64,000 bases of DNA from Pseudomonadota bacterium (GTDB lineage Bacteria; Pseudomonadota; Gammaproteobacteria; Steroidobacterales; Steroidobacteraceae), in contig JAJYUL010000009.1 in NCBI GenBank assembly GCA_021792555.1, positions 1 through 64,000 on the forward strand. Direction: 5' to 3'. Each line of letters begins with the position of its first letter. Position 1 is the stretch's first letter. This document shows, in pieces, positions 1 through 15,800 of the stretch. The notes beneath the pieces were generated by a model. It did not search any database and was not told the origin of the DNA. It saw only the letters and a list, made by a program, of their open reading frames with translations. The position numbers were made by a program, and so were the translations under genes.

Positions 1-839
1 GCGAGGCGTTTCACGATGAGCGCCACGCTCTGGGCCGTGAGGCGAGATGTTCCCACCCGGTCGCCGCGGTGGAGGCGCCGGAAGAGAGGACCGGTCATGA
101 TCCCGGCCACGACCTGCCAGTCGAGCACGGCCTGCACCGGGCAGTAGGGCGAACCGGGCACGCGCGGGAAGGCGATAACCGATCCCCCACTATCCTGGCT
201 GGTCTTGGAGCGCGCAATCAGCACCGCGAGGCCTTCCTGGTGCGCGCGCAAATCCTCGACATCGAGCGCGACGAGCTCCGAGCGCCGTAGCGCCCCGGCA
301 AAGCCGAGGAGCAGCAGCGCGCGATCGCGTGCACCCTGCACCGTCTGCGGCTCGAGCGCATCGACCATGCGTTTGATCTCCTCATCAACGGCCGGAGATT
401 TCCGTTGCGGCGGGCGCTTCCACGCACGGCGGATCCCACGCAGAGCCTCTGCAACCTCGATCGCATCGTGGGGCGAGAGGTGGTGTGCCCCGAGGTGCAT
501 CAGACGAATCGCCGCCACGCGTCGCGCGAGGGTCGCCGGCGCGCGCCCCAGTTTGGCCTCCGCGGAAAGGTAGAGCGCTAACGTGTGCGCCGTGGCGGGG
601 AGCGGGGCGAGTCTCACGGCTCGGCACCAGGCTTCAAAGTTGCGCCAGTCGGCCGCATAGGCTCGCCAGGTGGAGGCCGCCCGACTGCCGCGGGCGAACG
701 CGGCCGCGGCTTCGAGGGCCTCCTCGATCGAGAGGATCGGGAACGCATCCCGCGCGGAACGCCGGGATGCGCGGGCTCGTGGATCACTGTGCTGCCGTAC
801 CGGTGCGCCGTTGGTCGCTTTGTCGAGCTGTGTAATCAC
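1..839 (-). CDS. Tyrosine recombinase/integrase (C-terminus beyond left edge)
   Basis: This open frame on the minus strand runs from about 839 to the left edge with no stop, so the C-terminal catalytic part is missing from the window. The N-terminal half has the SAM-like core-binding pattern (STWRAYAADWRNFEAWC). It is followed by the start of the catalytic domain, with RDRALLLLGFAGALRRSEL carrying the first catalytic Arg. A later stretch, GPLFRRLHRGD, closely resembles GPIFRRIHK in the recombinase at 5830-7035, so the two belong to the same subfamily. No ATG is in frame; GTG at 839 or TTG at 851 are possible starts, neither with a convincing ribosome binding site. Its role is unknown: integrase or cointegrate resolvase of a neighbouring element are both possible. 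Confidence 0.8.
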   Translation of the reverse strand, partial: MITQLDKATNGAPVRQHSDPRARASRRSARDAFPILSIEEALEAAAAFARGSRAASTWRAYAADWRNFEAWCRAVRLAPLPATAHTLALYLSAEAKLGRAPATLARRVAAIRLMHLGAHHLSPHDAIEVAEALRGIRRAWKRPPQRKSPAVDEEIKRMVDALEPQTVQGARDRALLLLGFAGALRRSELVALDVEDLRAHQEGLAVLIARSKTSQDSGGSVIAFPRVPGSPYCPVQAVLDWQVVAGIMTGPLFRRLHRGDRVGTSRLTAQSVALIVKRL

Positions 840-1126
840 GAGATCGTGCAAGGTGCGGGATTTGGCGGAAGGAACGGCCGACTGAACCCGTCCGTGTGAC
901 GTGTTCGCGATCGGTCAGTGCGCCCGAGTCATCAGCCGTGTCGATTATGCCGCGCACGCAAAATTCTTGCGCCGGGGCGCGAGGAGGGGCAAGCTCACGA
1001 GTTGGATTCGATTGCGCGACGCAGACACCCCCTGCAACAGACGCGTCCGTGTGGCGCGAGAGGAGGCCCGCAACACACACACCAACCGAATGCTTGAGCT
1101 GAACAATCCTGGTCCGGGGAAGCAGT

Positions 1127-1169
1127 GCAGCGGACCCGTACGGTGAGGCGTGGCGTGCGGGTCCGCTGC
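1127..1169. repeat. 12-bp perfect inverted repeat (hairpin)
   Basis: GCAGCGGACCCG at 1127-1138 pairs perfectly with CGGGTCCGCTGC at 1158-1169 across a 19-nt loop. There is no T-run on either side, so a standard intrinsic terminator is unlikely. It could be a protein binding site or part of a recombination or transposon-end structure. Confidence 0.7.
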
Positions 1170-1170
1170 G

Positions 1171-1300
1171 GCGACAGAGTTGTTCTTCGGCGCATCTGTT
1201 GTCGCACGTGGTATCTGCGCCTTCCTGATCCCGCGTCAAGAATCGGGCAGGTCCCCGAGGGTGAAATAGTGTCCGCTGGAGCGTAGGACGCTTGTCCGCG
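1171..1300. other. Candidate left end of the tni transposon
   Basis: Just upstream of tniA are GCGACA (1171-1176) and TGTCGC (1200-1205) in inverted orientation, and then two TGTCCGC copies near 1270 and 1294. Tn5053/Tn7-like ends usually begin TGT and carry several short transposase sites inside. The exact terminus and a target duplication could not be identified, so this is an inference from position and TGTC repeats only. Confidence 0.25.
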
Positions 1301-1313
1301 CTTCGGGCGGCCG

Positions 1314-3380
1314 ATGGCGGTTGTGCGTCCGGCGCGCCGCCTCGAAGGGGGTCTTATGCCATCAGGTCATGTCCGCACTCGGCGCACAGCTGGGAAAGAA
1401 GGCGCGGCACGCGTGCCTCCTCCCGAACCGACCCCGGTGCTCAATGCAGTGCCTTCGCCGGGCGAGGCGCATCCGGATGATATTCCGTTTTCCCCGGGTG
1501 CACGTCTCACGCTCGGTGCCATCCCGGTGCAGCTCATCCACGCGCTCTCGCTCGAGCGGCTGCTGGTCAAGGACCTTGAGACGGGCGAAACGCGCCTTGT
1601 CGCCCGCACAGCCGTAAGGCCGGTCGATACCAGACTCGCCGAGCCGGATCCGCAACCAGTCGGGGACACGAATGTCAGCGACGAGCAGCTGGCGCGGCTG
1701 ACCGCCCGTGAGGCGATGCTCAAGCCCTACGTCGGCGGACGTGAGTTGACTCGCACCGAAGCACGACGCTTGGGCAGTACCTTGGGTGTTTCTGCCCGCA
1801 CGGTGTGCCGGTGGCTGCATAGCTACCGACGCGCCGGGGACATCACGGGGCTGATGCCGAGGCCCCGGGGCGTTCGGTCCGGCCAGCGCACGCTCGATCC
1901 GGCGGTGGATGCCATTATTCGTTTCGCCGTCGAAGCGAAGCTCAAGAGCAGCGGCAACTGCTCGGTGCGGGCGGTCTATGAAGCGATTCGCGGCGACTGC
2001 GAGGCCATCGGTAAGCCGGTGCCCGCGCGCGCGACCGTCCTCGGTCGAATCAAAGCGCTCAAAGCGGATCCGCAGTCTCTGCCTCCCGCGATCGCGCGGG
2101 AGGTGCGTAGCCGGCGCCGGCTCGTGCGCGGTTCCGCGCAAGCCCCGCACGCGCTCTCCCGAGTGGAAATCGATCATACGCTCGTTGACACCCACCTCGT
2201 CGATGCCCGGGACCGCGGTCCCTTGGGGCGCCCGTGGCTCACGATCGCGATGGATGTGTGCACACGGGTCATCCTCGGATTTGTGCTCACCCTCGAGGCG
2301 CCGAGCCGCTTGAGCGTTGCGCTCTGTCTGCGGCATGCGATTTATCCAAAGGAGCAGTGGCTTGAGAGAATCGGCGCGAACGGACCGTGGCCGGTCTACG
2401 GCCGTCCGCAGTACATCTACACCGACAACGGGCCGGATCTGCGCTCGGCCTCGTTTCGGATGGGTTGCAAGCGCCAGCACATCGAGAACGGCTACCGGCC
2501 TGCCCGCACGCCGCGATTCGGCGGCAGTATCGAGCGCTTGATCGGCACGTTCATGCGGCGCATGCGCCTGATCCCCGGCAACACGTTCAACGAGATTCTC
2601 GCCAAGCGCAGTCCCTATCCCGCGCAGGATGCAATCCTCACCTTGGAGGACCTCGAGCGTTGGTTTACCAACGAGATCACCGCCTACCACCACGAGCGCC
2701 ATCGCACCCTCGGCATGGCGCCGCTTGCCGCGTGGGAAGCCGCGTGGCGCACACCGCAGGGCGTGATGGTTCCCTCTCACCCCGCTGACCCCCATACGCT
2801 CTTTACCGATTTCCTGCCGCATGCGCTGCGCGCGGTGAAACCGGTCGGCATCGACTGGCACTGCCTGCGGTATCGCAGCGAGGCGCTCGCGCCGTACGTC
2901 GACCCCGCCACCAAGCGCGTCGTTCGCTGCGATCCGCGCGACCTCTCCGCGATCTGGTTGGACCTGCCGGAGGGGGGACACCTGCGGGTGCCGTGGCTCA
3001 ATCTCGCCTGGCCGCGCCTGTCGCTCTGGGAGTGGAATGAGATCCGCGCCCGGGATGGGCGGCGGGGCAAGGGCGCGGATCCCGCGCTCGTTCGCCAGTG
3101 TCTCGCGGACAACAATGCGCTCATCGCCGAGCGGGCGGCACGGGGGGAGCTGCGGGCGCGCCGGCGCCGGGCGCGTGCCGAGCGCTGGCATCCGGATGGG
3201 ATACGCGAGAACGATGTGCCGTTGGTGCCGGCAACCCAACCGAGCGCGCGCCGCTCACCTCGCAAGCGAGGGGGGAAGGTCAGGCGCCGTGTGCCCCCGT
3301 TGCCGCCGCTGCCGCGCGCGCAGCTCGAGGTGACCCGCGCCTCGGTGGAAAGTGCCGTGCCGTTTGAAGTGTTGGAGTAG
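1314..3380 (+). CDS. tniA: TniA/TnsB-like DDE transposase
   Basis: This 688-residue protein is an rve-superfamily transposase that would cut and join transposon ends. An N-terminal helix-turn-helix region (LGVSARTVCRWLHSYRRAG) precedes the catalytic core. The likely triad is Asp287 (VEIDHT), Asp371 (YTDNGP) and Glu407 (GSIERLIGTF), which gives the DD-35-E spacing of the family. A Mu-type C-terminal barrel follows, then a basic tail ending PFEVLE, as is usual for TniA proteins that contact the TniB ATPase. The next two genes are tniB and tniQ, spaced as an operon. An internal ATG at 1356 is an alternative start. Length, motifs and context make the family call secure; assignment to Tn5053-like rather than another TniA/TnsB branch is less certain. 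Confidence 0.93.
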   Translation: MAVVRPARRLEGGLMPSGHVRTRRTAGKEGAARVPPPEPTPVLNAVPSPGEAHPDDIPFSPGARLTLGAIPVQLIHALSLERLLVKDLETGETRLVARTAVRPVDTRLAEPDPQPVGDTNVSDEQLARLTAREAMLKPYVGGRELTRTEARRLGSTLGVSARTVCRWLHSYRRAGDITGLMPRPRGVRSGQRTLDPAVDAIIRFAVEAKLKSSGNCSVRAVYEAIRGDCEAIGKPVPARATVLGRIKALKADPQSLPPAIAREVRSRRRLVRGSAQAPHALSRVEIDHTLVDTHLVDARDRGPLGRPWLTIAMDVCTRVILGFVLTLEAPSRLSVALCLRHAIYPKEQWLERIGANGPWPVYGRPQYIYTDNGPDLRSASFRMGCKRQHIENGYRPARTPRFGGSIERLIGTFMRRMRLIPGNTFNEILAKRSPYPAQDAILTLEDLERWFTNEITAYHHERHRTLGMAPLAAWEAAWRTPQGVMVPSHPADPHTLFTDFLPHALRAVKPVGIDWHCLRYRSEALAPYVDPATKRVVRCDPRDLSAIWLDLPEGGHLRVPWLNLAWPRLSLWEWNEIRARDGRRGKGADPALVRQCLADNNALIAERAARGELRARRRRARAERWHPDGIRENDVPLVPATQPSARRSPRKRGGKVRRRVPPLPPLPRAQLEVTRASVESAVPFEVLE

Positions 3381-3384
3381 TGTC

Positions 3385-4578
3385 ATGACGCAGAACACAA
3401 CCCAGTCGCGTGGCCCGAAAGTGCCCGAAAAGCAGACCGAAAACTCGCGCAAGCGCAAGACGGCGCGCCGTCGAGCGCCCCCTGGAGTGGGACGTCAGTC
3501 GAGCCCGCTCGGCACGCGTACGACGAGGAAGATCGGGGCAGCCCGAGCGAACAACTGGCTGCACTTGGACCCCGTCATCCGTCCGATCGCGGCGCACAAC
3601 GATCTCGCTCGCGCGCGCCATATCCTGAAAGAACTGTACGTGAGCCATCCGCCGGCTCAGCACGTGGAGTGTCAGATCGAGCAGCTGATCCGGCTCCCAC
3701 GGCGCATCCGCATGCCGGGGCTGTTTCTGTGCGGGGATTCCGGCATGGGCAAGACGCACGTGCTGCGACGTATCGAACGGCGGCACCCTGAACGGGACGA
3801 CCCAACGACCAAGCGGCACATCCGGCCCGTGCTCTACGTGCAGGTGCCGGCCGCGCCCGATGTCCGCACGCTCAGGCGCACGGTGATCGATGAGGCGAAC
3901 ATCCCGTTTCTCGATCATCCCTCAAAACCGCTGTTACAATCGGTACTGCGGCGCGGCCTCGCGGCGGCGGGCACCGAGCTCATCGTGCTCGATGAGATCC
4001 ACAACATCGAGCACACCGACGGCAAGCAGCGGACCTGGTTGCGGGACTGGGTGCGCTGCCTCTCGAATGAGACGCAGCGGCCGATCGTGCTCGCGGGCAC
4101 GGAGGAATTCGAGTCGGCCATTCTCTCCGACCCGCAACTCTCGAGCCGCTACCCCATCGTGCGCCTGCCCAGGTGGACCGCCGGCCCGGATCTGGCGGCA
4201 TTCCTGCAGGGCTACGAGCGCGCCTGCCCGTTGCGCCTCGCCTCGCATCTGTCGGACCCGGCTCTCATGGGCACGCTCCTCGATGAAACAGAGGGGCTCA
4301 CGGACACGATCATTCGCTCCCTTCAGGCCGCAGCACTGGTGGCGATCCGCGAGGGGACCGAACGCATCGTGCCGGAGTATTTGAGCTGGTGGCGCGATCC
4401 GCCGCTGCTCGCGTACTACGGGGCGGGAGATGCGGAACAAGCGAGCGGCGCGTTGGCCAGAGCATGGCTGAAGGATGAGCGGCGCGGCGCGCCGCCGCCT
4501 TCGGGGCCGGCGCCGCGGGGCTTGCGCAATCGCGCGAGCCTCAGGGCAGAGGGCGAGCGGTGCGCCGGCCGGCTGTAG
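3385..4578 (+). CDS. tniB: TniB/TnsC-like AAA+ ATPase, transposition regulator
   Basis: This ATP-dependent DNA-binding protein bridges the target selector and the transposase in Tn5053/Tn7-type transposition. The Walker A motif GDSGMGKT lies at residues 117-124 and Walker B (VLDEIHNI, Asp203-Glu204) follows. A sensor-like VLAGTEEFE segment comes next, as in TniB. The N-terminus is long and very basic (SRKRKTARRRAPP), which may help DNA binding. ATG at 3385 was chosen because it lies 4 bases after the tniA stop with a GGAG-like sequence before it. The 3' end overlaps tniQ by 19 bases, so the two are probably translationally coupled. Confidence 0.92.
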   Translation: MTQNTTQSRGPKVPEKQTENSRKRKTARRRAPPGVGRQSSPLGTRTTRKIGAARANNWLHLDPVIRPIAAHNDLARARHILKELYVSHPPAQHVECQIEQLIRLPRRIRMPGLFLCGDSGMGKTHVLRRIERRHPERDDPTTKRHIRPVLYVQVPAAPDVRTLRRTVIDEANIPFLDHPSKPLLQSVLRRGLAAAGTELIVLDEIHNIEHTDGKQRTWLRDWVRCLSNETQRPIVLAGTEEFESAILSDPQLSSRYPIVRLPRWTAGPDLAAFLQGYERACPLRLASHLSDPALMGTLLDETEGLTDTIIRSLQAAALVAIREGTERIVPEYLSWWRDPPLLAYYGAGDAEQASGALARAWLKDERRGAPPPSGPAPRGLRNRASLRAEGERCAGRL

Positions 4579-5915
4579 CACAGGAGCCGCTGCGGCCGCG
4601 GGCGCGGCTCAACCTCGCGCCGCGCCTGCATGCGGAGGAAACGCTGACGTCGTGGCTCGAGCGCTTCGCCAGTGCCTACGGCATGACGATACGGGAGTTC
4701 TTACTCTGGCTCGGGTATCCCGATTTCTTTCGGTACGCTGACAACCCGCACGATCTGGATGTGACGTCGCCTGCCGATCTGGCCGGAGTGCTCGCCGCAC
4801 ATACAGGTATTGGTGCGCAAGTCATTGCCGCGCATCGGATGGATGGGGCGAGCGTGTTATCCCCTCACCGGCGGCGTGCGTTCTGTCCCGAGTGCTGGGC
4901 GGAGGGAGGCCGCTATCGACGCAGCGAGTGGGCCCACGGCTGGTCGCTCGTGTGTCGCCGCCACCGGCGACTTTTGAGTGAACGGCCGCGGCCCAAGGGC
5001 CCCCATGTCGACTGGTATGAGGAATCATGGCAGGAGTTCTATCGCGACACGAGCGCTTGGCGGGACCTGCGACCCTCGTGGGAAAGCAAGCCTTGGACAC
5101 GCATCTGCGAGGCCCTCGGCGTCGAACCGCACGCGGAGTTTCTGCGTGCCTGGCCGTGGCTGCTCGAACTCTCGCAACCGGCGGAGGACTCCGGCCGCAG
5201 CCGCGGCACGATGATCCGGTCGGCCGATGGTGTGTGCGACGGGCCGCGGGATCCGCACGCTCGGCAGGACTCAGGCGGCTCGCAGGACCTGCCCGTCGAC
5301 ACACTCACGGTCAAACAAGACCTGGCGCTCTACGGGATGATCCGGTTCTGGAGATTCTCGCTCCTCCAATCGCTCGATGGCGCAATCTCGAGTGACGAGC
5401 TGATGCAGGACACCTCGGGCGGGTGGATCTGCGCTGTGCGTACGCCCGATGTGCCGTATGGAATCCGGCTGTTTGCGGCGACGCTCGCGCGCCACCTCTG
5501 GATGAGACTGACCCAGGGCCCCTCGCGGTACGGCCGCTGCCCAATCCTCGAGCAGGTCGTAGAGCACGCCGAGCGCTGGAACGATGAGGACTGGTGGCTC
5601 GAGCAACGGCTGCGGACCTGGCCGCCGGCGTTGGCGGCCGCGGCTCGAGGGCTCTTTCGCAGAACGGATCCCTTCGTCATGCTGCCGCCCTGGCAACGCT
5701 GCCGCGAGTGTCTGCGCGGCATCCAGGGGGCCGTCCGGGAGGCGCTCACGATCTGCCTGCCCGAGCACTGGCGGTGCATCACCTGGGACCCCTCTGTGGC
5801 GAGGGAGCTCAATGAGAGCATCGCGCGGTTCATTCGTTCGCAGCAGCGCCGAACAGATCGGCCGCGGCGCTCGATTGCACGGCGCCCGATTGATAGTAGC
5901 GCAGGAAGGTGCTGA
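4560..5915 (+). CDS. tniQ: TniQ-family target-site selection protein
   Basis: This protein of about 451 residues carries the TniQ signature near the N-terminus (LHAEETLTSWLERFASAYGM). It also has a zinc-binding pattern: FCPEC with Cys109 and Cys112, then CRRH with Cys132 and His135. TniQ/TnsD proteins recognise target DNA and recruit TniB. The GTG start lies inside the end of tniB, supporting coupled translation. The last 86 bases overlap the end of the convergent recombinase gene, an unusual antisense overlap. The C-terminal half is divergent and its target preference cannot be read from the sequence. Confidence 0.9.
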   Translation: MRRPAVAQEPLRPRARLNLAPRLHAEETLTSWLERFASAYGMTIREFLLWLGYPDFFRYADNPHDLDVTSPADLAGVLAAHTGIGAQVIAAHRMDGASVLSPHRRRAFCPECWAEGGRYRRSEWAHGWSLVCRRHRRLLSERPRPKGPHVDWYEESWQEFYRDTSAWRDLRPSWESKPWTRICEALGVEPHAEFLRAWPWLLELSQPAEDSGRSRGTMIRSADGVCDGPRDPHARQDSGGSQDLPVDTLTVKQDLALYGMIRFWRFSLLQSLDGAISSDELMQDTSGGWICAVRTPDVPYGIRLFAATLARHLWMRLTQGPSRYGRCPILEQVVEHAERWNDEDWWLEQRLRTWPPALAAAARGLFRRTDPFVMLPPWQRCRECLRGIQGAVREALTICLPEHWRCITWDPSVARELNESIARFIRSQQRRTDRPRRSIARRPIDSSAGRC

Positions 5916-7035
5916 TGCTGCGGTGCCCGGTGAGGGCCATCGCCTCCTTCAGGGGGACGGCCTGACGGCCGGCCTCCGTAACGAACCCGGAACGCAGGGA
6001 GTGGGCGCCGAAGTCCCCCTCGAGCTTGGCGAGCGCCGCGCGCCGCTTGACGATGAGCCAGACCGCTTGCCCCGAGAGCGGCCCGCCCGGACGGGTCTTG
6101 TGGATCCGCCGGAAAATGGGCCCCGAGGTCACCCCCGAGGCCGAAAGCCAGGCGCTGAGCGCCGTGGCGGCGGCGCCGACGACGGGTTTGACGGCGTCCG
6201 GCTGGGCGCCGGTGCCCGATTGGTCGGTCTTCGATTGCCCGAGGCGATAGAGATACGTGTGCTCATCGACCTTCTCCAGCTGCTCCATCCGGGCGCCGGC
6301 GACCTCTGAGCGCCGCCGGCCGCCGGAGGCGAAGGCAAAGAGGAGCAGGGCGCGGTCGCGCACGCCCTTCAAGCCGTCCGTGCAGGTGGCGAGCAGCGCC
6401 GTGAGCGGATCGCGGGTCAACGCGGTCTTGGCGTGCGGCCGCACCCCACGGGTGGCATGGCCGCGGCGGATGCGCCGCACGAGCTCCTGCACGGCCGGGT
6501 CCCGCACCGGATTGGGGAGCTCGCGCAACTGGTGGGCTTTGGAGAGCACCGCGAGGCGGTGCATCACCGTGGCGAGTGCCGGGGCGCCTCGCTTGGTTTT
6601 GAATCCCCCCGCCACCAGCGCTGCATCGATCGCGGCGGGCAAATCGTGCACCCACGCGCCCCCTGCAAGGCAGGCCGTCGCCGAATCGCCGCCCGCAGGG
6701 CTGCGCAGGACGTGATCGACGAGGAACTGCAGCACCACGGGCACCGGGACGGGCAGCGTGAGGGCGGCGTGATAGCGCAGCTGAAACCACGCCACCCAGT
6801 ACCGCAGCGCGCTCGCGTAGCTGCGGACCGTGTTCGCCGATTCGCCTTCCTGCCACAGCGCCGCGACCGAGGCCTGGGCCTCGGCGTGCAGCACCTGCGG
6901 ATCGAGGGCCTCCGCGGTCGAGTGCAGCACGAGGCGGCTCGCCCCCGGGGTGCCTCCCGCAGGCGTTCCCCCGGCAGGGGGTGCGTACCCCGCAGGGGCG
7001 CTTGCACGGCGGCGATGGCGTGGCATACTTTTCAT
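5830..7035 (-). CDS. tnpS: TnpS-like tyrosine recombinase (cointegrate resolution)
   Basis: This 401-residue site-specific recombinase has a SAM-like N-terminal domain (SYASALRYWVAWFQL) and a full catalytic domain. GGRRRSEVAG carries the first Arg, AHSLRSG is the HxxR box, TGHRSIS is the third box, and FLRYYQSG carries the nucleophilic Tyr. It is divergent from the KfrA-like gene at 7126 with only 90 bp between, and a core-site-like inverted repeat lies in that gap. This matches the tnpS-rst-tnpT arrangement of Tn4651-type transposons, in which TnpS resolves cointegrates. Tn5053 itself uses a serine resolvase, TniR, so this would be a replacement. The gene symbol is by analogy. A second Met at 7026 is an alternative start. 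Confidence 0.85.
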   Translation of the reverse strand: MKSMPRHRRRASAPAGYAPPAGGTPAGGTPGASRLVLHSTAEALDPQVLHAEAQASVAALWQEGESANTVRSYASALRYWVAWFQLRYHAALTLPVPVPVVLQFLVDHVLRSPAGGDSATACLAGGAWVHDLPAAIDAALVAGGFKTKRGAPALATVMHRLAVLSKAHQLRELPNPVRDPAVQELVRRIRRGHATRGVRPHAKTALTRDPLTALLATCTDGLKGVRDRALLLFAFASGGRRRSEVAGARMEQLEKVDEHTYLYRLGQSKTDQSGTGAQPDAVKPVVGAAATALSAWLSASGVTSGPIFRRIHKTRPGGPLSGQAVWLIVKRRAALAKLEGDFGAHSLRSGFVTEAGRQAVPLKEAMALTGHRSISTFLRYYQSGAVQSSAAADLFGAAANE

Positions 7036-7068
7036 AGAATATGGGAAATATATCTCTTAAATCAAGCG

Positions 7069-7101
7069 TTATTCACGATAACGATCTCTTATCGCGACTA
7101 A
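7069..7101. repeat. Candidate recombination core site (13-7-13 inverted repeat)
   Basis: The arms TTATTCACGATAA (7069-7081) and TTATCGCGACTAA (7089-7101) are inverted copies matching at 11 of 13 positions. They flank the 7-bp spacer CGATCTC. The size is typical of tyrosine recombinase crossover sites. It lies between the divergent recombinase and KfrA-like genes, where Tn4651 carries its rst site. ATCTCTTA also occurs twice (7052-7059 and 7084-7091), which may mark an accessory binding site. The AT-rich region probably holds the promoters of both genes as well. Confidence 0.6.
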
Positions 7102-7125
7102 TTTAACGACAGGGCAGGGCACCGC

Positions 7126-8190
7126 GTGACCACAGAATCGCACTCCCAAGAAAGGCCGGCCGCCCGGCGCCGCTCCGACGAGCCGTATGAATCCCTGCTG
7201 GGCCCTGCACCCGGTTCATCGACCGCGGAGCCACCGTCGGCGGACGAGGAGACCTCGCCGGAGCGTCCCGAGGCCGGGGCACCGCGCGCCCGGCGCGTCT
7301 CGGCCGCCGAGGTGTTCGCCGCCGCCGACACACTGCTCGTCGAGGAACATCGGCCCACCATCGACCGGGTCCGGGTCCGCCTGGGGCGTGGCTCGCCCAA
7401 TACCATCAACGAGCACCTCGACACCTGGTGGCGGCAGCTCGGCGCCCGAATCCGGGATCTCCCCGGACAGGAGTTTCCCCAGCTGCCTGAGCGCGTGGCG
7501 CGCACGTTGCAGCTGCTCTGGAATGAAGCCCTCAAAGGCGCGCACGAGGCACTACGGGATGCGGTGACCACCCGCGAGGAAACGCTGCAACAGCGGGAAG
7601 ACGCGCTGACCGCGCGCGAGCGCCAACTGGAAGAAGAGCGACAGGCCGGGGTGGCCCGCGGCTCGGCGCTCGAAGATAGCCTCGCGCTGGCTCGCACCCA
7701 GCTTGCCGAATCCAATCAGCGCGCCGGCGCCCTTGAGCAATCCTTACGCGAACGGGATGAGTCGATCGCGAGCCTCCAGCGGCGCCTCGAGCAGCTGGAG
7801 GCCCAGACCACGGCACTCGCCGAGCGACTGGAAGCCGAACGGAAGGCACGCGGTGCGGAGCGTGCCCAATTCGATGCGCGCTATGACGCTGCCGAACGGC
7901 GATGGCTCACCGAGGTCGACCAGGCGCGCGAGCGGCTCAAGACTCATGAAAAGCAAGCTCGTGCAGACGCCGCGGATCGTGCTCGACTGCAAGATGAGCT
8001 GCAGCGCGCGAGGCGCGAAGCACTCGAAGCGGTTCACGAACTGAAAACCGCCCGCGTGGTGAGCGAGGAGCTGCGTGAGCGCATCAAGGCCTTCGCCGAT
8101 CGTGCGCCGGTGTCCCGCATCCGTCGCCGGAGATCCAGCCCATCTCGCCGCGCCGCCTCGGTCCACAAGCGGAAGAACAAGACCCAGTAA
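7126..8190 (+). CDS. tnpT: TnpT-like/KfrA-like coiled-coil DNA-binding protein
   Basis: This 354-residue protein has a KfrA-type N-terminal DNA-binding domain at about residues 57-125 (VSAAEVFAAADTLL, then LGRGSPNTINEHLDTWW). A long alpha-helical coiled coil rich in Glu, Arg and Gln follows at about 135-325, with a basic tail at the end. KfrA is a plasmid protein with this layout, and TnpT, the accessory protein that works with TnpS in cointegrate resolution, is of the same type. The GTG start is 25 bp from the candidate core site. It probably binds that site and stimulates or directs recombination; this is inferred from gene order. The symbol is by analogy, not by database match. Confidence 0.8.
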   Translation: MTTESHSQERPAARRRSDEPYESLLGPAPGSSTAEPPSADEETSPERPEAGAPRARRVSAAEVFAAADTLLVEEHRPTIDRVRVRLGRGSPNTINEHLDTWWRQLGARIRDLPGQEFPQLPERVARTLQLLWNEALKGAHEALRDAVTTREETLQQREDALTARERQLEEERQAGVARGSALEDSLALARTQLAESNQRAGALEQSLRERDESIASLQRRLEQLEAQTTALAERLEAERKARGAERAQFDARYDAAERRWLTEVDQARERLKTHEKQARADAADRARLQDELQRARREALEAVHELKTARVVSEELRERIKAFADRAPVSRIRRRRSSPSRRAASVHKRKNKTQ

Positions 8191-8235
8191 TATTCAAGTT
8201 CCCAAAGTCCCTCCACGCGGGACAGGGGAGGACGC

Positions 8236-9315
8236 ATGCCGACTGCGAAAGATTTCCTTGTAGGACGAACGCTCTCCAAGGGCTGGAAAGTAACTCAGAA
8301 GGTCACAAACCCGACCGGTGAAACCGGGGGGCATTTCTCTTCCGGCTACCTCGTGGAGTCCCCCACGGGCAAGCCACATTTCCTGAAAGCGATCGATTTC
8401 GAAGCAGCCATGCGGGCCAAAGACCCGGCGCGTGCCCTCCAGGCTTTAACGGAAATGTTCAACCTCGAACGCGACATTCTGAACCTGAGCAAGAGCAAGC
8501 GCATGAGCCATGTCGTCACGGTAATTGAAGACGGCACCGAGAACGTGTCCGTCCCGGACGCTCCGGGGGGCGGGCCAGCGCAGACTGTTCAGTACCTCAT
8601 CTTTGAGCTCGCGCACGAAAGCCTGCGCCACATGGTCACGGTCTCAAAGCGACTCCCGATGTCGCAGGCGCTGAAGGCCCTGCATAACGTGGCAAACGGT
8701 CTGCGGCAGCTGCACGGGGTGCAGGTGGCGCATCAGGACATGAAACCCTCGAATGCGCTGCGCTTTGTCGACGGTGTTTTCAAAGTCTGTGACGTCGGAC
8801 GCGCGTCAATGAAGGGGCGCGCAGCACCGCACGATGGCTTGAGTGTCGCGGGCGAACGTACCTACGCTCCGCCGGAACTCCTCTATGGGCAGGTGGATCC
8901 GGATTTCGTGGTGCGTCGTCTGGGGTGTGATGCGTATCTGCTCGGTAGCCTCGCCGCATTTCTAATCACGGGCCTGCCGATGACAGCGATGATCATCGAT
9001 GAGCTCGACTCTGCAGCTCGGCCGACCGTATGGACGGGCACTTATGCTGCCGTGCTTGGTCAGGTTCGGGCGGCCTATGCGCGAGCGCTCGACCGCGTGG
9101 CGAATGATATTCCAACTGAAGCACCGTACCGCGAGGAGTTGCTCCAGTGCATCCGCCAGCTCTGCGATCCGGACCCAGATCTTCGAGGTCACCCAGTCAC
9201 CCGGGCAACGCTCGCCGGCACCGGTAACGTCTACGACCTGGAGCGGTACATATCAATTTTCGATCGGTTGGCTCTAGAAGCGGGGATTCATGAGCGTCGT
9301 AAGGCCAGCCGATGA
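8236..9315 (+). CDS. Hanks-type Ser/Thr protein kinase (transposon cargo)
   Basis: This 359-residue soluble protein has eukaryotic-like kinase motifs. There is a glycine-rich loop region (GETGGHFSSGY), the ATP-anchoring Lys51 (HFLKAID) and the catalytic loop HQDMKPSN with Asp168, Lys170 and Asn173. CDVGRAS at Asp186 takes the place of DFG, and an APPE motif follows. The key catalytic residues are present, so it is probably active. No transmembrane segment or sensor domain is seen. It starts 45 bp after the KfrA-like gene, and its stop overlaps the start of the TPR gene, so the pair is a translational unit. A role in defence or signalling is possible but not shown. Confidence 0.85.
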   Translation: MPTAKDFLVGRTLSKGWKVTQKVTNPTGETGGHFSSGYLVESPTGKPHFLKAIDFEAAMRAKDPARALQALTEMFNLERDILNLSKSKRMSHVVTVIEDGTENVSVPDAPGGGPAQTVQYLIFELAHESLRHMVTVSKRLPMSQALKALHNVANGLRQLHGVQVAHQDMKPSNALRFVDGVFKVCDVGRASMKGRAAPHDGLSVAGERTYAPPELLYGQVDPDFVVRRLGCDAYLLGSLAAFLITGLPMTAMIIDELDSAARPTVWTGTYAAVLGQVRAAYARALDRVANDIPTEAPYREELLQCIRQLCDPDPDLRGHPVTRATLAGTGNVYDLERYISIFDRLALEAGIHERRKASR

Positions 9316-10841
9316 GCATAAGTCAACCGGACGCTGAAAGGCGCCTGCTGCCGCGCTGGCGGCCCTCGGAAGCGACTATCTTTGCGGGAGAGCTCGCGAG
9401 CGCTTCGACCGTTGAGAAAGAGCGCGAGCCTGATGCGCACTTCGAGGAGCGCAAGCTCGAATGGGATCGTGAGCGATCCATCGAGGTCGCCGCCGAACTG
9501 GTGGCCTCGGGCATCGTGCTCGGTCGACTCAATGAAGTCGAGCCGGCGGTCCGGATGCTGGCGGACAATGCGTCCGATGCCAACCCAAGCATCCGAGCGG
9601 TCGCTCGGCGTGCCCTCGGCGAGCGGGCAGTGGCACCGCCGGAGTCACTTGGCCTTCAGCCGGGACGGCTCGATCCGACGCCCGTTTACAGCCACATCAG
9701 CGCATTGCGTCGTCACGTGCATCTGCATCCCCGCGATGCCTATGCGTGGGTTGATCTTGCGCGGCTTTACACGATCTTAGGTCAGACACCGAGCGCAGAT
9801 CGGACCATTCGCGTTGCTCTCGAGCTCGCGCCAGAGGATCGGTTTGTATTACGGTCGGCCGCGCGGTACCTCGTACATGTCGATGATCCTCAGGCTGCAC
9901 AACGGCTCTTGAACGGCGCCAGAGCGACGCGGGTCGATCCTTGGCTCATCGCCGCGGAAATTTCGGTAGCGCAAGTGGCCAAGCGACGTAGTGTGACCGC
10001 TTCACTCGGGCAGCGTGGCCTAGATCATTCGCAGTGGGCACCCCGGAGCAGTTCCGAATTGGCTGGCGCCCTCGGGACCTTGCTCCTCGAAGACGGCGCG
10101 ATGCAGAAGGCACGACAACTGTTTCGGCGGAGCCTCGAAGACCCAACCGAGAATGCGATTGCGCAAGCCCAATGGGCCAGCCAGCAGAGCTTGGGGCTCA
10201 TTGTGCCTGCACCTTTGCTGAATAGACCCGCCACCTACGAGGCGCGGGCGCTGCGTGCTCGCCTGGAGGGATTGTGGGACGCTGCGATCGCGAGAAGCTG
10301 GGAGTGGACGGAGTTCGAGCCGACCTCGAGTCGCCCTTTGATGATGGGCTCCTACGTTGCAGGTGTCGTGTTCGGGGACGGAGCGACGGTGCTCGAATTT
10401 GCGGAACGCGGGCTCTACGCCGAACCTCATAATGCCTCGTTGCTGAACAACAAGGCTGTCGGACTTGCGTATCTCGGTCGGGTCTCCGAAGCGGCGATCA
10501 TTCTCGCGAAAGTCGTAATCGACACGAGTCCCAACTTTACTCAACCAGCGCTATATGCCACGACCGGCCTCCTGGCGTTTCGTGGTGGTAATCCGGTAAC
10601 GGGGCGGGAATTTTACGAACGGGCCGCGAGTCACCCCTACACCCAACGGGATCGGAGTGTGCGAATCTTGGCGCTGTGGCACTTGGCGCTCGAAGAAGCC
10701 CGGGCGCTCACCGATCAGGCTGACGCTGCGGTTGCACGCGCTGAGCGCGCCAGCAAAGATTCGAAGCTCGCCGAGGTGGCGGCACTCCGCAAACGACTTG
10801 ATGAAATCAAATCCAAGACGACGGCTCAAAGAGATCAATAA
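9312..10841 (+). CDS. TPR-repeat protein paired with the kinase
   Basis: This 509-residue protein is predicted to be helical with tetratricopeptide-like repeats. They are clearest at about residues 125-205 (AYAWVDLARLYTILGQ, then IRVALELAPEDRFVLRSAARYL) and 375-440 (LLNNKAVGLAYLGRVSEAA). There is no signal peptide or membrane segment. The ATG overlaps the kinase stop (ATGA), which implies coupled translation and a shared function. The TPR protein may be the substrate, scaffold or effector of the kinase. The family could not be named more closely. The first 60 residues are charged and lack repeats. Confidence 0.75.
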   Translation: MSISQPDAERRLLPRWRPSEATIFAGELASASTVEKEREPDAHFEERKLEWDRERSIEVAAELVASGIVLGRLNEVEPAVRMLADNASDANPSIRAVARRALGERAVAPPESLGLQPGRLDPTPVYSHISALRRHVHLHPRDAYAWVDLARLYTILGQTPSADRTIRVALELAPEDRFVLRSAARYLVHVDDPQAAQRLLNGARATRVDPWLIAAEISVAQVAKRRSVTASLGQRGLDHSQWAPRSSSELAGALGTLLLEDGAMQKARQLFRRSLEDPTENAIAQAQWASQQSLGLIVPAPLLNRPATYEARALRARLEGLWDAAIARSWEWTEFEPTSSRPLMMGSYVAGVVFGDGATVLEFAERGLYAEPHNASLLNNKAVGLAYLGRVSEAAIILAKVVIDTSPNFTQPALYATTGLLAFRGGNPVTGREFYERAASHPYTQRDRSVRILALWHLALEEARALTDQADAAVARAERASKDSKLAEVAALRKRLDEIKSKTTAQRDQ

Positions 10842-11094
10842 AGCGATGCAAACCTGAATCGAAGCTGACGCTGACGCCCGTTGGCCACTGAGTGCCGCCG
10901 ATCGGATCGGATCGGAGAGGACGCCGTCCCTCCAGTCCGCGTCGGACCGGCGCCGAAGCACCAGCCCCACACGTGACGGGATCACGTGATCACCACCGCT
11001 CGGCTACAACTCGCCGTCGCTGCCCCTCATCGAGGCCGAAGTTCAGCCCGACGCAGGTCACGCGGAATTTGTCCCTGATGCCAATGGCGGTTTG

Positions 11095-11287
11095 CTGTCA
11101 ATCATTTCGGTCACTGGGGTCAAAACTGCCAATCATTACTGTCACCGGCGCCGCATTGCATGACATCAATGATCAGTCGATCGGGAAGGCGGCCGGGCGG
11201 CCATTTTGAAATCTGTCGCTGGCCGGATAACTTCCTGATTCTACAGCTGCTTTAGGTGACACAATTGATTCAGCGGGTGACATGAAG
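11095..11287. repeat. Repeated TGTCA motifs, candidate transposon end or MITE-like relic
   Basis: Two 20-bp direct repeats lie 31 bp apart: CTGTCAATCATTTCGGTCAC at 11095-11114 and CTGCCAATCATTACTGTCAC at 11126-11145. They match at 17 of 20 positions. Related motifs appear in the opposite orientation at 11161-11173 (TGACATCAATGAT), 11255-11274 (GGTGACACAATTGATTCAGC) and 11276-11282 (GGTGACA). Multiple short transposase sites with TGTCA are usual for ends of TniA/TnsB or IS21-type elements. This could be the right end of the tni transposon or a separate relic. No target duplication was identified. Confidence 0.5.
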
Positions 11288-11360
11288 GAACGGTCCTCAC
11301 AGCTGACCTGAAGAGTTGTGTGGAAAAACGTGGACTGCCTCGCCTCGCCTTAGCATTTAC

Positions 11361-11376
11361 CATAATATATATTATG
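11361..11376. repeat. 16-bp AT-only-core palindrome
   Basis: CATAATATATATTATG is a perfect palindrome within an otherwise GC-rich region. It could be an operator or promoter element. It is not followed by a gene that could be supported on the plus strand. Confidence 0.5.
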
Positions 11377-11541
11377 CGCACCATGAGGGGATGCCGAAAT
11401 GGCGCCACCCGGCTCGGAGTTGCGAGAACTGAGCTATTGACCGCAAACCGAGCCGCTGCTCGGCGGCAAGTCAGCGGCAAGAATCAACGCGAGGTTCCCC
11501 ATAGCCTGCTCAATGCTCGACGGCGGAGACAAATATTCGCA

Positions 11542-11835
11542 CTAAGATGTTCGGACTCTAGAATCCGGGAATCGACGCAATGGACACTGGCCCACCCTGA
11601 TTCCCACGTGATTCGTGACGCACTGGCCAAGCACCGCGGAACACTTAGGGCATCGCGTGAACAGGCTGTACAATACGCTTGCCACGAAGACTATAACGGC
11701 CAGGATCCAGATGGGTGCCCAGGCACGGCTGTGCGTCGTGATGAGGCTAACGGCCGCTACCGCCCATGCTGTGAACGCAACAATTGTCGAGCGGCGAACG
11801 CGCCGTTTGAGACGCTCTCTAATTGTTTCCGGCAT
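11542..11835 (-). CDS. Small two-helix membrane protein with CxxC
   Basis: Starting from Met at 11835 this gives 97 residues. A basic N-terminus (RERLKRRVRR) is followed by two hydrophobic helices (IVAFTAWAVAAVSLI and WILAVIVFVASVLYSLF). The C-terminus has RCPKCSAVLGQC and a later Cys, resembling a degenerate zinc ribbon. The family is not recognised. It stands alone, and a competing plus-strand frame covers the same DNA. Charge and hydrophobic pattern favour this strand. Confidence 0.5.
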   Translation of the reverse strand: MPETIRERLKRRVRRSTIVAFTAWAVAAVSLITTHSRAWAPIWILAVIVFVASVLYSLFTRCPKCSAVLGQCVTNHVGIRVGQCPLRRFPDSRVRTS

Positions 11836-12000
11836 GGCCAATTCTCCCAGGGCTGATGCGTCGCTTATTGCGAGAATACCACCCCTCTCGGGTTTTTTTC
11901 TCGAAAGGCCAACATCGAGCGACGACGTGTGGCATGGCGTGTGCGGTTCCATCCGTTGTTTCCCTGTTGTAGAGCCCGCGACTAAATTGTGGAAGTCGTA

Positions 12001-12465
12001 ATGGTCAGAATGAGGAAGGCTACGCGCGCGGATGCGCAGGCCATATGGGATCTACGAAATGCGTCGATCATGGTCAAATGCAAAGGATACTATCCGGATG
12101 CGACGCTGAGGAAATGGACGTCCGGAGTCCCATCTGAACCGTTTTACGGTGATGTCCAGCGTGATTGTTATCTCGCGATCGATTCTGAGGGCATTGCTGG
12201 ATTCGGAATGATCGACCTGGAGCGCGCAAGAGTAAAATCGCTGTTCGTTCATCCGCGGCATATGGCCAAAGGTATTGGCACGCTTATATTGAGCCATCTG
12301 GAGAATTTGGCCAGAAATGCGGGACTAGAACAGCTGTCCCTGGACTCATCTCTCAATGCAGCTCCTTTCTATCGTACATGCGGGTTTACAGGCGACGCCG
12401 CCGGCAAGTACGAGTCCGCCAACGGAGTCATCCTTGACTGCATTCCTATGAGCAAACGTCTTTAA
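12001..12465 (+). CDS. GNAT-family N-acetyltransferase
   Basis: This 154-residue protein has the GNAT fold pattern. An N-terminal RKATRADAQAIWDLRN strand-helix comes first, then the core VKSLFVHPRHMAKGIGTLIL, which is the acetyl-CoA pyrophosphate loop (RHMAKGIG in place of R/Q-x-x-G-x-G/A). A C-terminal FYRTCGF motif follows. The substrate is unknown. GTG at 11989 and ATG at 12010 are alternative starts. The GC content is lower than in the neighbouring genes, which suggests it was acquired with the mobile region. It stands alone in its transcription unit. Confidence 0.85.
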   Translation: MVRMRKATRADAQAIWDLRNASIMVKCKGYYPDATLRKWTSGVPSEPFYGDVQRDCYLAIDSEGIAGFGMIDLERARVKSLFVHPRHMAKGIGTLILSHLENLARNAGLEQLSLDSSLNAAPFYRTCGFTGDAAGKYESANGVILDCIPMSKRL

Positions 12466-12826
12466 GAGAAGGAGGCTGAGCCTCTGTCGTCGACCCTCGG
12501 CCGATGACTTGGCGGGTTTCTGGATCGACATTCGGACTGGTTCATTCAGTCCAGTCACCTTTCTGCTCCGCGGTCCGCGCGCGCGAGCGGAAGTCGCAGC
12601 GGGACCCGCTTGTTGGCTACCGCCCTCGCCCGCCGCCGCATCACTCCTTGCGCATGGCCGGCAGACCCGCCCGCGGAGCGTAGAGGCGCGCGAAACTCGG
12701 TGTGGCCGCCTCCCCGAACGATTTTCGCATCTCGCGAGCCTGGATCATCCATCCGCACCAGAGGGACTGCCATCGCTCAACGGCAGTTTGTCCCCATGAT
12801 CACTGGTCATCCGTTGACGAGCCCCT
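12466..12826. other. Intergenic region, no gene seen
   Basis: This GC-rich stretch lies between the convergent acetyltransferase and Tricorn-like genes. No open frame here has a credible protein pattern and no strong terminator is visible. It may be the boundary between acquired and core DNA. Confidence 0.4.
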
Positions 12827-15800
12827 CTAGTTCCCGGAATGACCGTCACGGGCAGAGGAATTGCCCAGAGCGGATCCTGCATTGTGATTCGGATACGGAG
12901 GGTGGGGAACGACGTGGAAGGTGTGCCCTTTCAGCTCACGCATTGCGATCGCGACGGCGGCCTCAAGCTGCGGGTCCTGACCTTTGCGCCAAAGCGCGGG
13001 GTTCATCGGCACTCTCACATCGGGTGTCACCCCGTGATCTTCGACCTCCCATTTTCCATTGGGGAAATAGATGGCCACGTCCGGCGCTGTCACCATGCTG
13101 CCGTCCATCAACGTCGGATATGTACTGATCCCGACGAGTCCTCCCCAAGTTCGGGTGCCGACCAACTCGCCCACGTGCTGGTGCTTGAATATGTATGGCA
13201 TGTAATCGCCGCCCGAGCCGGCAAAGTGATTGATGATCATCACCTTCGGCCCGAAGATCGCGGCGGGTGCGACTTGAGTATGGCCATAACGGTTTAGCTC
13301 GAAGCTCAGCACGGGCTGCTGCAGTTCGTTGATCACGTAGTTGGCGAGCAGGCCGCCGTGGTTGAATCGCTCGTCGACGATTGCGCCCTGCTTGCCGATC
13401 TGGGAAAAGAAGTAGCGATTGAAATCGGTCCAGCCGCCGGCTGCCGTATCCGGCAGATAGATGTAGGCGAGCTTGCCATGGCTCAGCTTGTTCACCAGCT
13501 TTTGATTGTGGTCGATCCAGTCCTGCTTTCGCAGTGCCATTGCGTGACTCACCGGCACTACTGTGACTTGGCGCGAATTCGCGCCGTCAGGACTTGCGGA
13601 GACAGTCAGGACCACGTGCTTGCCCGCGGTGTTCTGAAAGAACGAATAAATATTGTCCGTGCCGTACAACGGGCGGCCATTTACCTCGAGCAGGTAGTCG
13701 CCTACTTTCACGTTCACTCCGGGCTGCGTGAGCGGCGCATGCAGCTGCGGGTTCCAGTTTTCCCCACTGTAAATATGCGAGAAGCGGTAGCGGTCGTGAT
13801 CTATCGTGTAGACCGCGCCAAGCAGGCCGACCGAGATCGGTTTCTTCCGATACGGCGAAGGAAAGAGGAACATGTGGGAGACGCTCAGGTTGCCCACCAT
13901 GTCGTGGAAGATATACGCCAGATCAGACCGGCTCTCCACTCCGGGCAGAAACCGCGCATAGTATTTTTCAGCACGCGGTATGCTCAGTCCGTTGAACTGC
14001 GGCGAATAGAAGAAATCTTGCTCGATGCGCCAGACCTGACGATACATTTCGTCCCACTGTTGGCGTGGAGCGACATAGACCTGAAGATGGTCGGTGTCGA
14101 GCGTCGTTCCGGCGCCCGCACCTACCTTGGCCTGAGCCGGCACGATCCGCCAGCGCGAATGCTGCTCCAGGAGCATCTTCTTGCCGTCGGCAGCCATCGC
14201 GAAGCTCCGGATGTCCGACAGTACCCGTGTTGCCTTGCGTTTCTTCAGGGAGAACCGGTAAAGGTCGAGTCCCGGGTGGTCGGGCCGGCTTTGGCGCACG
14301 ACGGGACCCGCCAGCAGCCACAGCACTCCCGGTGCCGACACTTTCAGAGCCCGGTAGGACCGCGGCGGAATGGGCAGAGCCAGAATCCGATGGCTCAGGC
14401 CCTGAAAGTCAATCGTGACCTTGGCTGGAGCGGCAGATGCCGACTTGGCGGAACCGGCTCCCGTCTTAGATGGCGCGGGCGGCGCCATCTTTTCGTCCCC
14501 GGTCCTCGGGGCCAGCGGCGAGGGAATATTGTTGCGCAGCACCGCGACATAAACGCTGTAAACGGTGGGTCGATCGAAGGAGGAAAGCGCCCATACCTCA
14601 GAGCCCGGGTTCGGATTCGTGCTGGCCACGAAGTAGAGGTATTTGCCGCTGGGGTCGAACTGCGAGAAGTCAGCGTCGCTGCCGGCAGGAGTGATTCGCG
14701 TGGATTTTCCAGATGCCAGCGAATAGACGAAAATTGCGTGCAGATAGTTCGGGAGAACCGTCGTATAAGTGAGCCAGCGGCTGTCAGCGGACCAGCCGGG
14801 GTTGAAGGATCGATAGCGGGTATCGTAGTAACGGGTGGCGACCAGCGTCCTTTTGCCGGTCTTCACGTTGACGATCCAAAGGTGCTGCGCGATGTCGGTA
14901 AACGCGATATAGCGGCCGTCAGGGGACCAGACGGGGTCGAAGTAAAACGTTGGGTGAGCGCCGAGGCTTATCTTGCGGACCGGGCCGATTCCGTTCTGCG
15001 GACTGATGTAAAGCTCATTTTCGCCCGAGGCATCGGAGAAATAAGCGATCTTGGTGCCGTCCGGCGACCAGGCGGGGTAACGCTCGCAGGCCCCCGTGGT
15101 GCCGGTGATGTCGTGTGCGGTGCCGTGTTTCGTGGGAACCGTCAGGATGTCGCAGTGCGCCTGAAAGACCGCGCGCACGCCGTGCGGCGAGATATCGGGA
15201 TGACGCAACTGCCGTGCGACGCTGTCCCAGCGCGGTTGCGCGGCGGGAAAATCGGCGTGGATGACGACGTGGACCTGGCGGATCTGCCCCGAGTTCACAT
15301 CGAGCAGAAACAACTTCCCCATTTCGGTGTAGACGATGGCCGGATGCGAAGTGTCGAGAGCGCCAGCGGTGGCCGTGAGAATGTCGTGCCCGTCATTCGG
15401 CGAAACCGCCGTCACAGCCTTGGAGCCGAGGTCGTAGCGATACAGCCTGAAGTGGCTCCCGGTGCGGTCGGAGAGGAAATAAATCGCGTCACCGATCCAC
15501 ATCGGATCCTTGTTGTTGGCGCCATCGCGCGGCAGCGTCGTAACGCGCGAATCGCTCAGCTGCGCGATACGGATGCGCGGCTCCATTCCGCCCCGATAAT
15601 GCTTCCACGCCTCGAACCAAGGGTGATTACGGAACGGGACGTATGCCAGACGTAGGCCACGGCGAGAATAGGATCCCTGCGTCGCCCAGGGCAGCGGCAG
15701 CGCGGCCGGCAGTCCTCCGGTCACGGGAACCGTGAAGAGCCGGAAGTACAGTGGATCGATGCTGTAACGGGTCGATCTGAACAATACGCGCTTGCTGTCA

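Follow-up and report, generated by a model that had tools for sequence, protein, structure and literature searches.

A Tn5053/Tn7-like tniABQ transposon with a tyrosine recombinase/KfrA pair that probably inserts beside dif or an rst-like site

The stretch of 64,000 nucleotides analyzed here, termed the window, is the beginning of contig JAJYUL010000009.1 of a Steroidobacteraceae bacterium (assembly GCA_021792555.1). It carries the transposition genes tniA, tniB, and tniQ, followed by a tyrosine recombinase (TR) gene and a divergent gene for a coiled-coil protein with a KfrA_N domain. These genes very probably belong to a Tn5053/Tn7-like tniABQ transposon that hunts the sites of tyrosine recombinases, since its right end faces dif at a distance of 40 to 53 base pairs (bp) or adjoins the rst-like site of a TR/KfrA pair. 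The gene content, the transposon ends, two target duplications, one empty site, and the pattern of insertion sites are read directly in the sequence. Genomes, contigs, and loci are identified by G, C, and L numbers, with G000 denoting the draft genome of the window (3.51 Mb).

An earlier note, made from the sequence alone, had placed five genes at positions 1314-8190, with 90 bp between the divergent TR and KfrA genes. These coordinates are borne out, and Pfam and NCBIfam models provide the families (Table 1). The three tni genes lie in one operon, as in the Tn5053/Tn402 family. TniA carries the motifs IDHT, YTDNG, and GSIERL of a D-D-35-E transposase, and it matches an IS481-type DDE model of NCBIfam at 1.1e-14, which is below that model's own cut-off. 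Walker A and Walker B motifs are both found in TniB. The TR has a complete catalytic set (R/K/HxxR/H/Y), and the residues R/K/H/R/H/Y are invariant in nine aligned rows. In related elements, tniA is 79-83% identical (L042, L043, L046, and L047), and TniQ is 55-80% identical (six other elements). No TnsA endonuclease gene is present among the genes between tniA and the right end; the left cargo was not searched for TnsA.

Table 1. Features of the element and its surroundings in the window
Feature	Positions	Strand	Evidence or remark
Second tyrosine recombinase (TR2), cut by contig edge, divergent from tniA	3..851	-	Homologue L223:5304-6350 (-)
Non-coding block before tniA, conserved and with a strong predicted fold	1110..1262	+	148-153 nucleotides
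tniA, DDE transposase (TnsB-like)	1314..3380	+	Pfam Mu-transpos_C 4.5e-07; DDE motifs
tniB, AAA+ ATPase (TnsC-like)	3352..4578	+	Pfam TniB 1.1e-40
tniQ, presumed target-selection adaptor	4560..5915	+	Pfam TniQ 1.9e-14
TR, presumed cointegrate resolvase	5830..7035	-	Pfam Phage_integrase 4.9e-17
rst-like candidate recombination site, intergenic	7036..7125	.	Aligned in window and 8 relatives
KfrA_N coiled-coil DNA-binding protein, presumed TnpT-like helper	7126..8190	+	Pfam KfrA_N 8.4e-25
Protein kinase, cargo, candidate anti-phage PDC-M71A	8236..9315	+	PADLOC 1.1e-103
TPR protein, cargo, candidate anti-phage PDC-M71B	9312..10841	+	PADLOC 9.9e-108
Right end: AATCATT-N-TGTCACC-type repeat array, tip ...GGTCCTCACA at 11301	11100..11301	-	Alignment with L042, L047, L048
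53-bp spacer between tip and dif	11302..11354	.	First 5 bp, GCTGA, are the expected target duplication
dif-like site GGTGCGCATAATATATATTATGGTAAAT	11355..11382	-	Only dif-pattern match in G000

The element is larger than the block of five genes. The window aligns with its relatives up to position 11301, and nothing aligns just beyond this point except dif. The right ends of L043 and L049 were also read. Flanks diverge beyond the tip, and ~200 bp of TGTCACC-type repeats, in either orientation, precede it. Because the right end is at 11301, the kinase/TPR gene pair belongs inside the element. The earlier note had named transposon ends that leave out the recombinase pair as a finding that would speak against it; instead, the common right end takes in both TR and KfrA. 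The window starts at base 1 of its contig (C5), so the left end falls beyond the contig edge and the window holds only the right part. Left ends, TGTGAGGAC..., were found in G660, G662, and G663, and TGTCACC arrays are present at both ends of relatives. Thus, the element has terminal inverted repeats with arrayed putative transposase-type repeats, as in the Tn5053/Tn402 family. A search with the tip pattern produced 11 matches in eight genomes, compared with one match for the backward control.

The dif pattern (at most three mismatches) has a single match in G000 and none in the control. This match differs at two positions from E. coli dif. The distance from tip to dif is 53 bp in G000, 46 bp in G657, 46 bp at both right ends read in G658, 40 bp in G661, and 53 bp (C280) and 47 bp (C226) in G663. 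Hence, the tip-to-dif interval is 40-53 bp in all seven of these right ends, which come from five genomes, and neither the side nor the orientation varies; by the E. coli orientation, the side is that of XerD. Nine right ends were read in total: seven at dif, one at an rst-like site, and one in tandem next to another copy. None of the nine sits in a serine-resolvase res site. As a matter of arithmetic alone, if insertion were random in 3.5 Mb with a single site, the 60 bp to one given side of that site would be hit with a chance of ~2 in 100,000.

The flanks to the right of dif were compared among G000, G657, G658, G661, and G663-C226, leaving out G663-C280, which extends only ~65 bp beyond dif. 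Alignable sequence is limited to 26-38 bases around dif, except that the flanks of G658 and G663-C226 are 97% identical over 1500 bases and thus are not independent. The surroundings of other TniA relatives (25-37% identity; 19 regions, 251 kb) contained neither a dif core (at most three mismatches) nor a TR close to that of the window. These regions do contain a KfrA-type gene (L269), another tyrosine recombinase (L270), and serine recombinases (L270, L274, and L278).

The insertion at an rst-like site is in G662 (bin TL2-1.bin3), where the same 5 bp, TGTGC, flank the left end (L051) and the right end (L048). An empty site was recovered in L050 (bin FAK.bin15); the matches to the two flanks are 97% and 99% identical and overlap by exactly 5 bp. 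The target is located between a resident TR gene, whose product is 56% identical to that of the window, and its KfrA gene. The insertion adjoins the AT-rich core and the palindrome of the resident pair, and this palindrome, ACGATAA-N7-TTATCGT, is the same as in the element's own site. The middle and right contigs of this insertion have 126 identical bases in their overlap. A second duplication, GCAGG, is found in G663, with the left end in contig C277 and the right end in C226. In C277, a right end, 3 bp, GCAGG, and a left end follow one another in tandem. Because GCAGG and then dif come after the C226 right end, the C277 left end and the C226 right end probably belong to one copy. The dif site of G662 (L264) was also considered as an empty site, and was dropped because another terminus (TGTCGG...) lies 32 bp away.

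Filamentous phages and IMEX elements integrate at dif by Xer recombination, and dif is adjacent to seven of the nine right ends read. An origin of these insertions through Xer recombination is nevertheless extremely improbable. The elements have sharp TGTG...CACA ends located 40-53 bp off dif, are flanked by 5-bp duplications, and include one insertion that is not at dif. On the duplications and the position of the tips away from dif, this type of integration is rejected.

Several observations weigh against targeting of such sites as proposed here. The four left ends divide into one at the rst-like site, one in tandem, one near another terminus (G660), and one that is unassigned (G663:C222), for which no site could be matched in 54 bp of flank. 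The G660 left end adjoins a 22-bp stretch that resembles (20/22) the terminus beside dif in G662, which makes the link to dif indirect; this likeness was read by eye and then checked, and was not reported by BLAST. Distances from dif are spread over 13 bp, and the center of the rst core is ~30 bp from the tip, compared with 54-67 bp for dif, so the geometry varies between targets. As a control, the 19 regions are limited, being partial elements without determined ends. None of the elements recovered has both ends on one contig: the left end and left duplication of the window's own copy are outside the sequence, the two sides of the G662 and G663 insertions are each on different contigs, and the G663-C226 junction retains no more of the tip than its final 8 bp. 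All eight tni-linked relatives come from metagenome bins, in which strains may be mixed. A predicted structure of TniQ was unusable (pLDDT 35.5).

The same clade of elements occurs at both kinds of site with nearly the same TniQ. An element at dif in G658 was compared with the one inserted at the rst-like site of G662: their TniQ proteins are 98.9% identical over 351 amino acids, their right parts share 99.0% DNA identity over 5.46 kb, and their tniAB sides 93.5%. The presence of near-identical elements at dif and at an rst-like site implies that site choice is not simply a matter of one DNA sequence. This bears on the alternative that TniQ (or TniB) reads dif and rst as DNA sequence, without sensing a bound recombinase. 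TnsD reads sequence in this way at attTn7, and the fixed side and orientation near dif, together with the high conservation of the dif sequence, would fit such recognition. However, the sites that go with the near-identical TniQ proteins, dif and an rst core, have little sequence in common (GAATATACTACATATTC), and the spacing differs between the two. We therefore regard direct reading of DNA by TniQ as possible but doubtful.

Targets might instead be selected by the element's own TR/KfrA pair, or once by TR2, binding dif or a resident rst in the manner of TnsF. A precedent exists in the Tn6022-like transposon, in which TnsF, a protein of the tyrosine recombinase type, targets comM, according to the part of PMC10293859 that was available. 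The palindrome shared by the resident rst and the element's own site would be in keeping with selection by TR/KfrA, but this palindrome is absent from dif, and the catalytic residues of the TR are all kept. TR2, by comparison, looks inactive in L223, where HSLR is replaced by QSLR and the tyrosine nucleophile is missing, as might suit a former selector. Yet TR2 is internally deleted in L043 and is away from tniA in L047, and both elements are at dif, which rules out TR2 as a required dif selector. It is also not next to tniA in L046, where 24 kb of left DNA lack it. Selection of targets by any of these recombinases thus appears unlikely.

To place the TR, genome contigs were scanned with an alignment of nine TRs, and the best 80 of at least 540 relatives were kept (L042-L121). 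The eight closest (L042-L049, 73-87% identity, from seven metagenome-assembled genomes) all have tniQ, TR, and KfrA genes in the same arrangement. The tniA gene is at least partly visible in five of these loci (L042, L043, L044, L046, and L047), and in the other three (L045, L048, and L049) the contig ends before reaching it. Since tniQ is in the same relative place in 8/8 of the closest TR loci, the arrangement is not due to chance. The co-occurrence that the earlier note had proposed to look for is therefore present, in a block with a common right end. No tni genes were found in the other 72 loci (L050-L121) within up to 10 kb, and often less, on each side.

In a maximum-likelihood tree of 99 rows, the window TR and the eight tni-linked TRs form one clade (support 100/98) nested inside a larger family, that of the stand-alone TR/KfrA pairs. 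Far outside this family, TnpS of Tn4651 sits on a very long branch, so its exact position is unsure. The earlier note had likened the pair to TnpS-rst-TnpT of the Tn4651 group. With respect to layout, this comparison holds: the genes are divergent, two inverted-repeat pairs lie between them, and TnpT of pWW0 also has a KfrA_N domain (2.6e-26). Of the two repeats in the intergenic site, one forms an AT-rich core, GAATAT-N5-ATATAT (7037-7053), and the other is a longer inverted repeat, TCACGATAA-N7-TTATCGCGA (7073-7097). An AT-rich core with a second inverted repeat is also the architecture described for rst of TnpS-rst-TnpT in the accessible part of PMC7157771. The proteins themselves do not bear out a closer relationship, as the TR is 28% identical to TnpS over 246 amino acids, and BLASTP of the KfrA protein against TnpT yields nothing significant (best E 0.12). 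On these values and the tree, transfer of the module from Tn4651 is rejected. Because the tni-linked TRs nest in the stand-alone family and TnpS branches outside it, the TR/KfrA module was probably taken up once, and from a stand-alone pair rather than from Tn4651.

The stand-alone pairs also raise the question of whether TR and KfrA form a module that resided in the plasmid or island and that a tni transposon adjoins by coincidence. The earlier note had held close relatives that are phage or genomic-island integrases without a link to tniABQ to be damaging, and this objection applies in part. The nearest kin outside the tni-linked clade are stand-alone TR/KfrA pairs of plasmids and chromosomes; among the 80 best relatives, 72 have no tni gene nearby, and 59 of these 72 have a divergent KfrA gene. 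Nevertheless, the tni-linked TRs constitute a clade of their own with the window, tniQ is beside the TR in every one of its eight closest relatives, and the conserved right end lies past the TR/KfrA pair. A resident module is thus very unlikely, and the single tni-linked clade and the right end beyond the pair likewise rule out that the TR is a phage or island integrase. No serine resolvase (TniR) was matched in 11 stretches of these elements, although the positive control, L274, was matched. Hence, the proposal that a tni transposon carries what may be a different resolution system is supported by the conserved tniABQ-TR-KfrA arrangement and the lack of a serine resolvase match; an origin of the module in the Tn4651 group is not supported.

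Targeting and resolution can be inferred from these data as follows. TniABQ would make the insertion, as the sharp ends and 5-bp duplications indicate. Transposition may be replicative, a mode suggested by the lack of a serine resolvase together with the conserved TR/KfrA pair. Resolution of the resulting cointegrate would fall to the element's own TR and KfrA, acting on their intergenic site. TniQ, with TniB, would most likely sense a recombinase-DNA complex, which would be XerCD on dif or TR/KfrA on rst. Sensing of a bound recombinase is proposed by analogy with Tn5053, which inserts at res sites occupied by a serine resolvase. The carried genes appear to be exchangeable, with a PDC-M71 pair in the window and mercury resistance in a relative.

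The element resembles Tn5053/Tn402 in its tniA, tniB, and tniQ genes, its arrayed-repeat ends, its 5-bp duplication (of which the window's own copy presents only the expected right side), and its preferred orientation next to a resolution site. It differs in that a tyrosine recombinase and KfrA_N pair replaces the serine TniR/res system, and in that dif and an rst-like site take the place of serine-resolvase res sites as targets. In the res hunters (PMC7765201), TniABQ acts with the resolvase that occupies the target to produce a cointegrate; the element's own res-TniR then resolves it, assisted by the resolvase of the target. A preferred orientation and 5-bp repeats are also described. A review (PMC11406308, available in part) states that Tn5053 targets plasmid resolution sites, presumably with TniQ.

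Tyrosine resolvases have been reported in tnsA-less Tn7-like clades, including the Tn5053 clade, by Benler et al. 2021 (PMC8649781, in the part available). The combination of tni genes with a tyrosine recombinase is therefore not new in itself. As in our element, these tnsA-less elements have a transposase core and a tyrosine resolvase and are predicted to transpose replicatively; unlike here, a KfrA helper is not mentioned for them in that part of the text. The TnpS-rst-TnpT system of Tn4651 shares the divergent tyrosine recombinase and KfrA_N helper, with a site of two inverted-repeat pairs between them, but belongs to a Tn3-family transposon rather than to tniABQ, and the helpers are alike by domain only. 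The stand-alone TR/KfrA pairs of plasmids and chromosomes (for example, pQBR103 and pNY11382-IMP) have the same layout, a TR that is 45-62% identical, and in most cases a KfrA_N partner, with no tni genes in the surrounding DNA examined. The TnsF-guided Tn6022-like transposon (Faure et al. 2023, PMC10293859) also joins a tniQ-type transposon to a tyrosine recombinase fold. TnsF targets comM and is inactivated as a recombinase, whereas the TR here keeps its catalytic residues.

The adjacent PDC-M71 A and B genes in the window constitute a candidate defense system. This kinase/TPR pair was not seen in L044 or L049, and L043 has other genes at that place. In L044 (123-6637, minus strand), the KfrA gene is followed by a gene for an AAA ATPase of 649 amino acids that matches the AriA, HEC-01A, PtuA, and Old models. 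Next to it is a gene for a protein of 1472 amino acids, which is possibly another defense cargo. This protein, one L043 protein, and one L259 protein have no Pfam family at E 1e-5. The left cargo of G662 includes a MerA-type reductase and MerC, and that of G661 includes an RND efflux pair.

The non-coding block upstream of tniA is present in all six elements that cover the region, with copies in L223 (6566-6713), L043, L046, L047, and L260. It is 89-91% identical, compared with 81-84% for tniA, and among 369 genomes searched in the class, it was found only in the window's own. The fold z-score is -3.1 for positions 1115-1262, but the opposite strand is lower (-3.7), and 1160-1262 reaches only -1.35. 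Two-sided changes occur in one of 71 predicted pairs, and several pairs are broken. Rfam produced no match in window positions 1-13000. An RNA function for the block at 1110-1262 is thus a weak proposal.

The second terminus, TGTCGGNNCNNCNAGATTTNNGNAACC, is located 32 bp from dif in L263 (G660:C53) and L264 (G662:C499), and a mer operon is just inside it in one of these two genomes. A third occurrence (G000:C48:304-330) is away from the G000 dif. No tni genes were found in this second type of dif-side element in L263, L264, or L289. It is possibly another dif-targeting element.

Other TRs also occur near dif. In G165 (L215), a TR/KfrA pair of a related family directly adjoins a dif-like site. 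In viral contigs, a dif core (at most one mismatch) is present in 31 of 52 related-TR loci (L122-L173; for example, L133, L135, L145, and L154), and in 12 of these 31 it is less than 1.7 kb from the TR match. This sample is biased by prophages at dif, and covers the TR and not KfrA. TniQ itself matched no plasmid and no viral contig.

Among the literature matches listed, which mostly exclude subscription papers, there is no report of dif as a target of tni, Tn5053/Tn402, or Tn7-like transposons. Targeting of dif is also not reported in the available parts of PMC12907356, PMC11472951, PMC7765201, PMC8373256, and PMC6737455, and dif as a whole word has no occurrence in PMC8649781, PMC11406308, and PMC10293859.

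Hunting of res sites has so far been known for the sites of serine resolvases. If a tni transposon does home on dif, then the same strategy works with tyrosine recombinases, and dif would be a near-universal bacterial attachment site for Tn7-like elements. It may be that elements of this clade recognize working tyrosine recombinases, whether XerCD at dif or TR/KfrA at rst, as a general signal of a dimer-resolution site. One TniQ could then reach both the chromosome terminus and plasmids, and the recombinase of the target could be borrowed to resolve the element's own cointegrates. It would also become testable whether TniQ senses a DNA sequence or a protein-bound, bent target.

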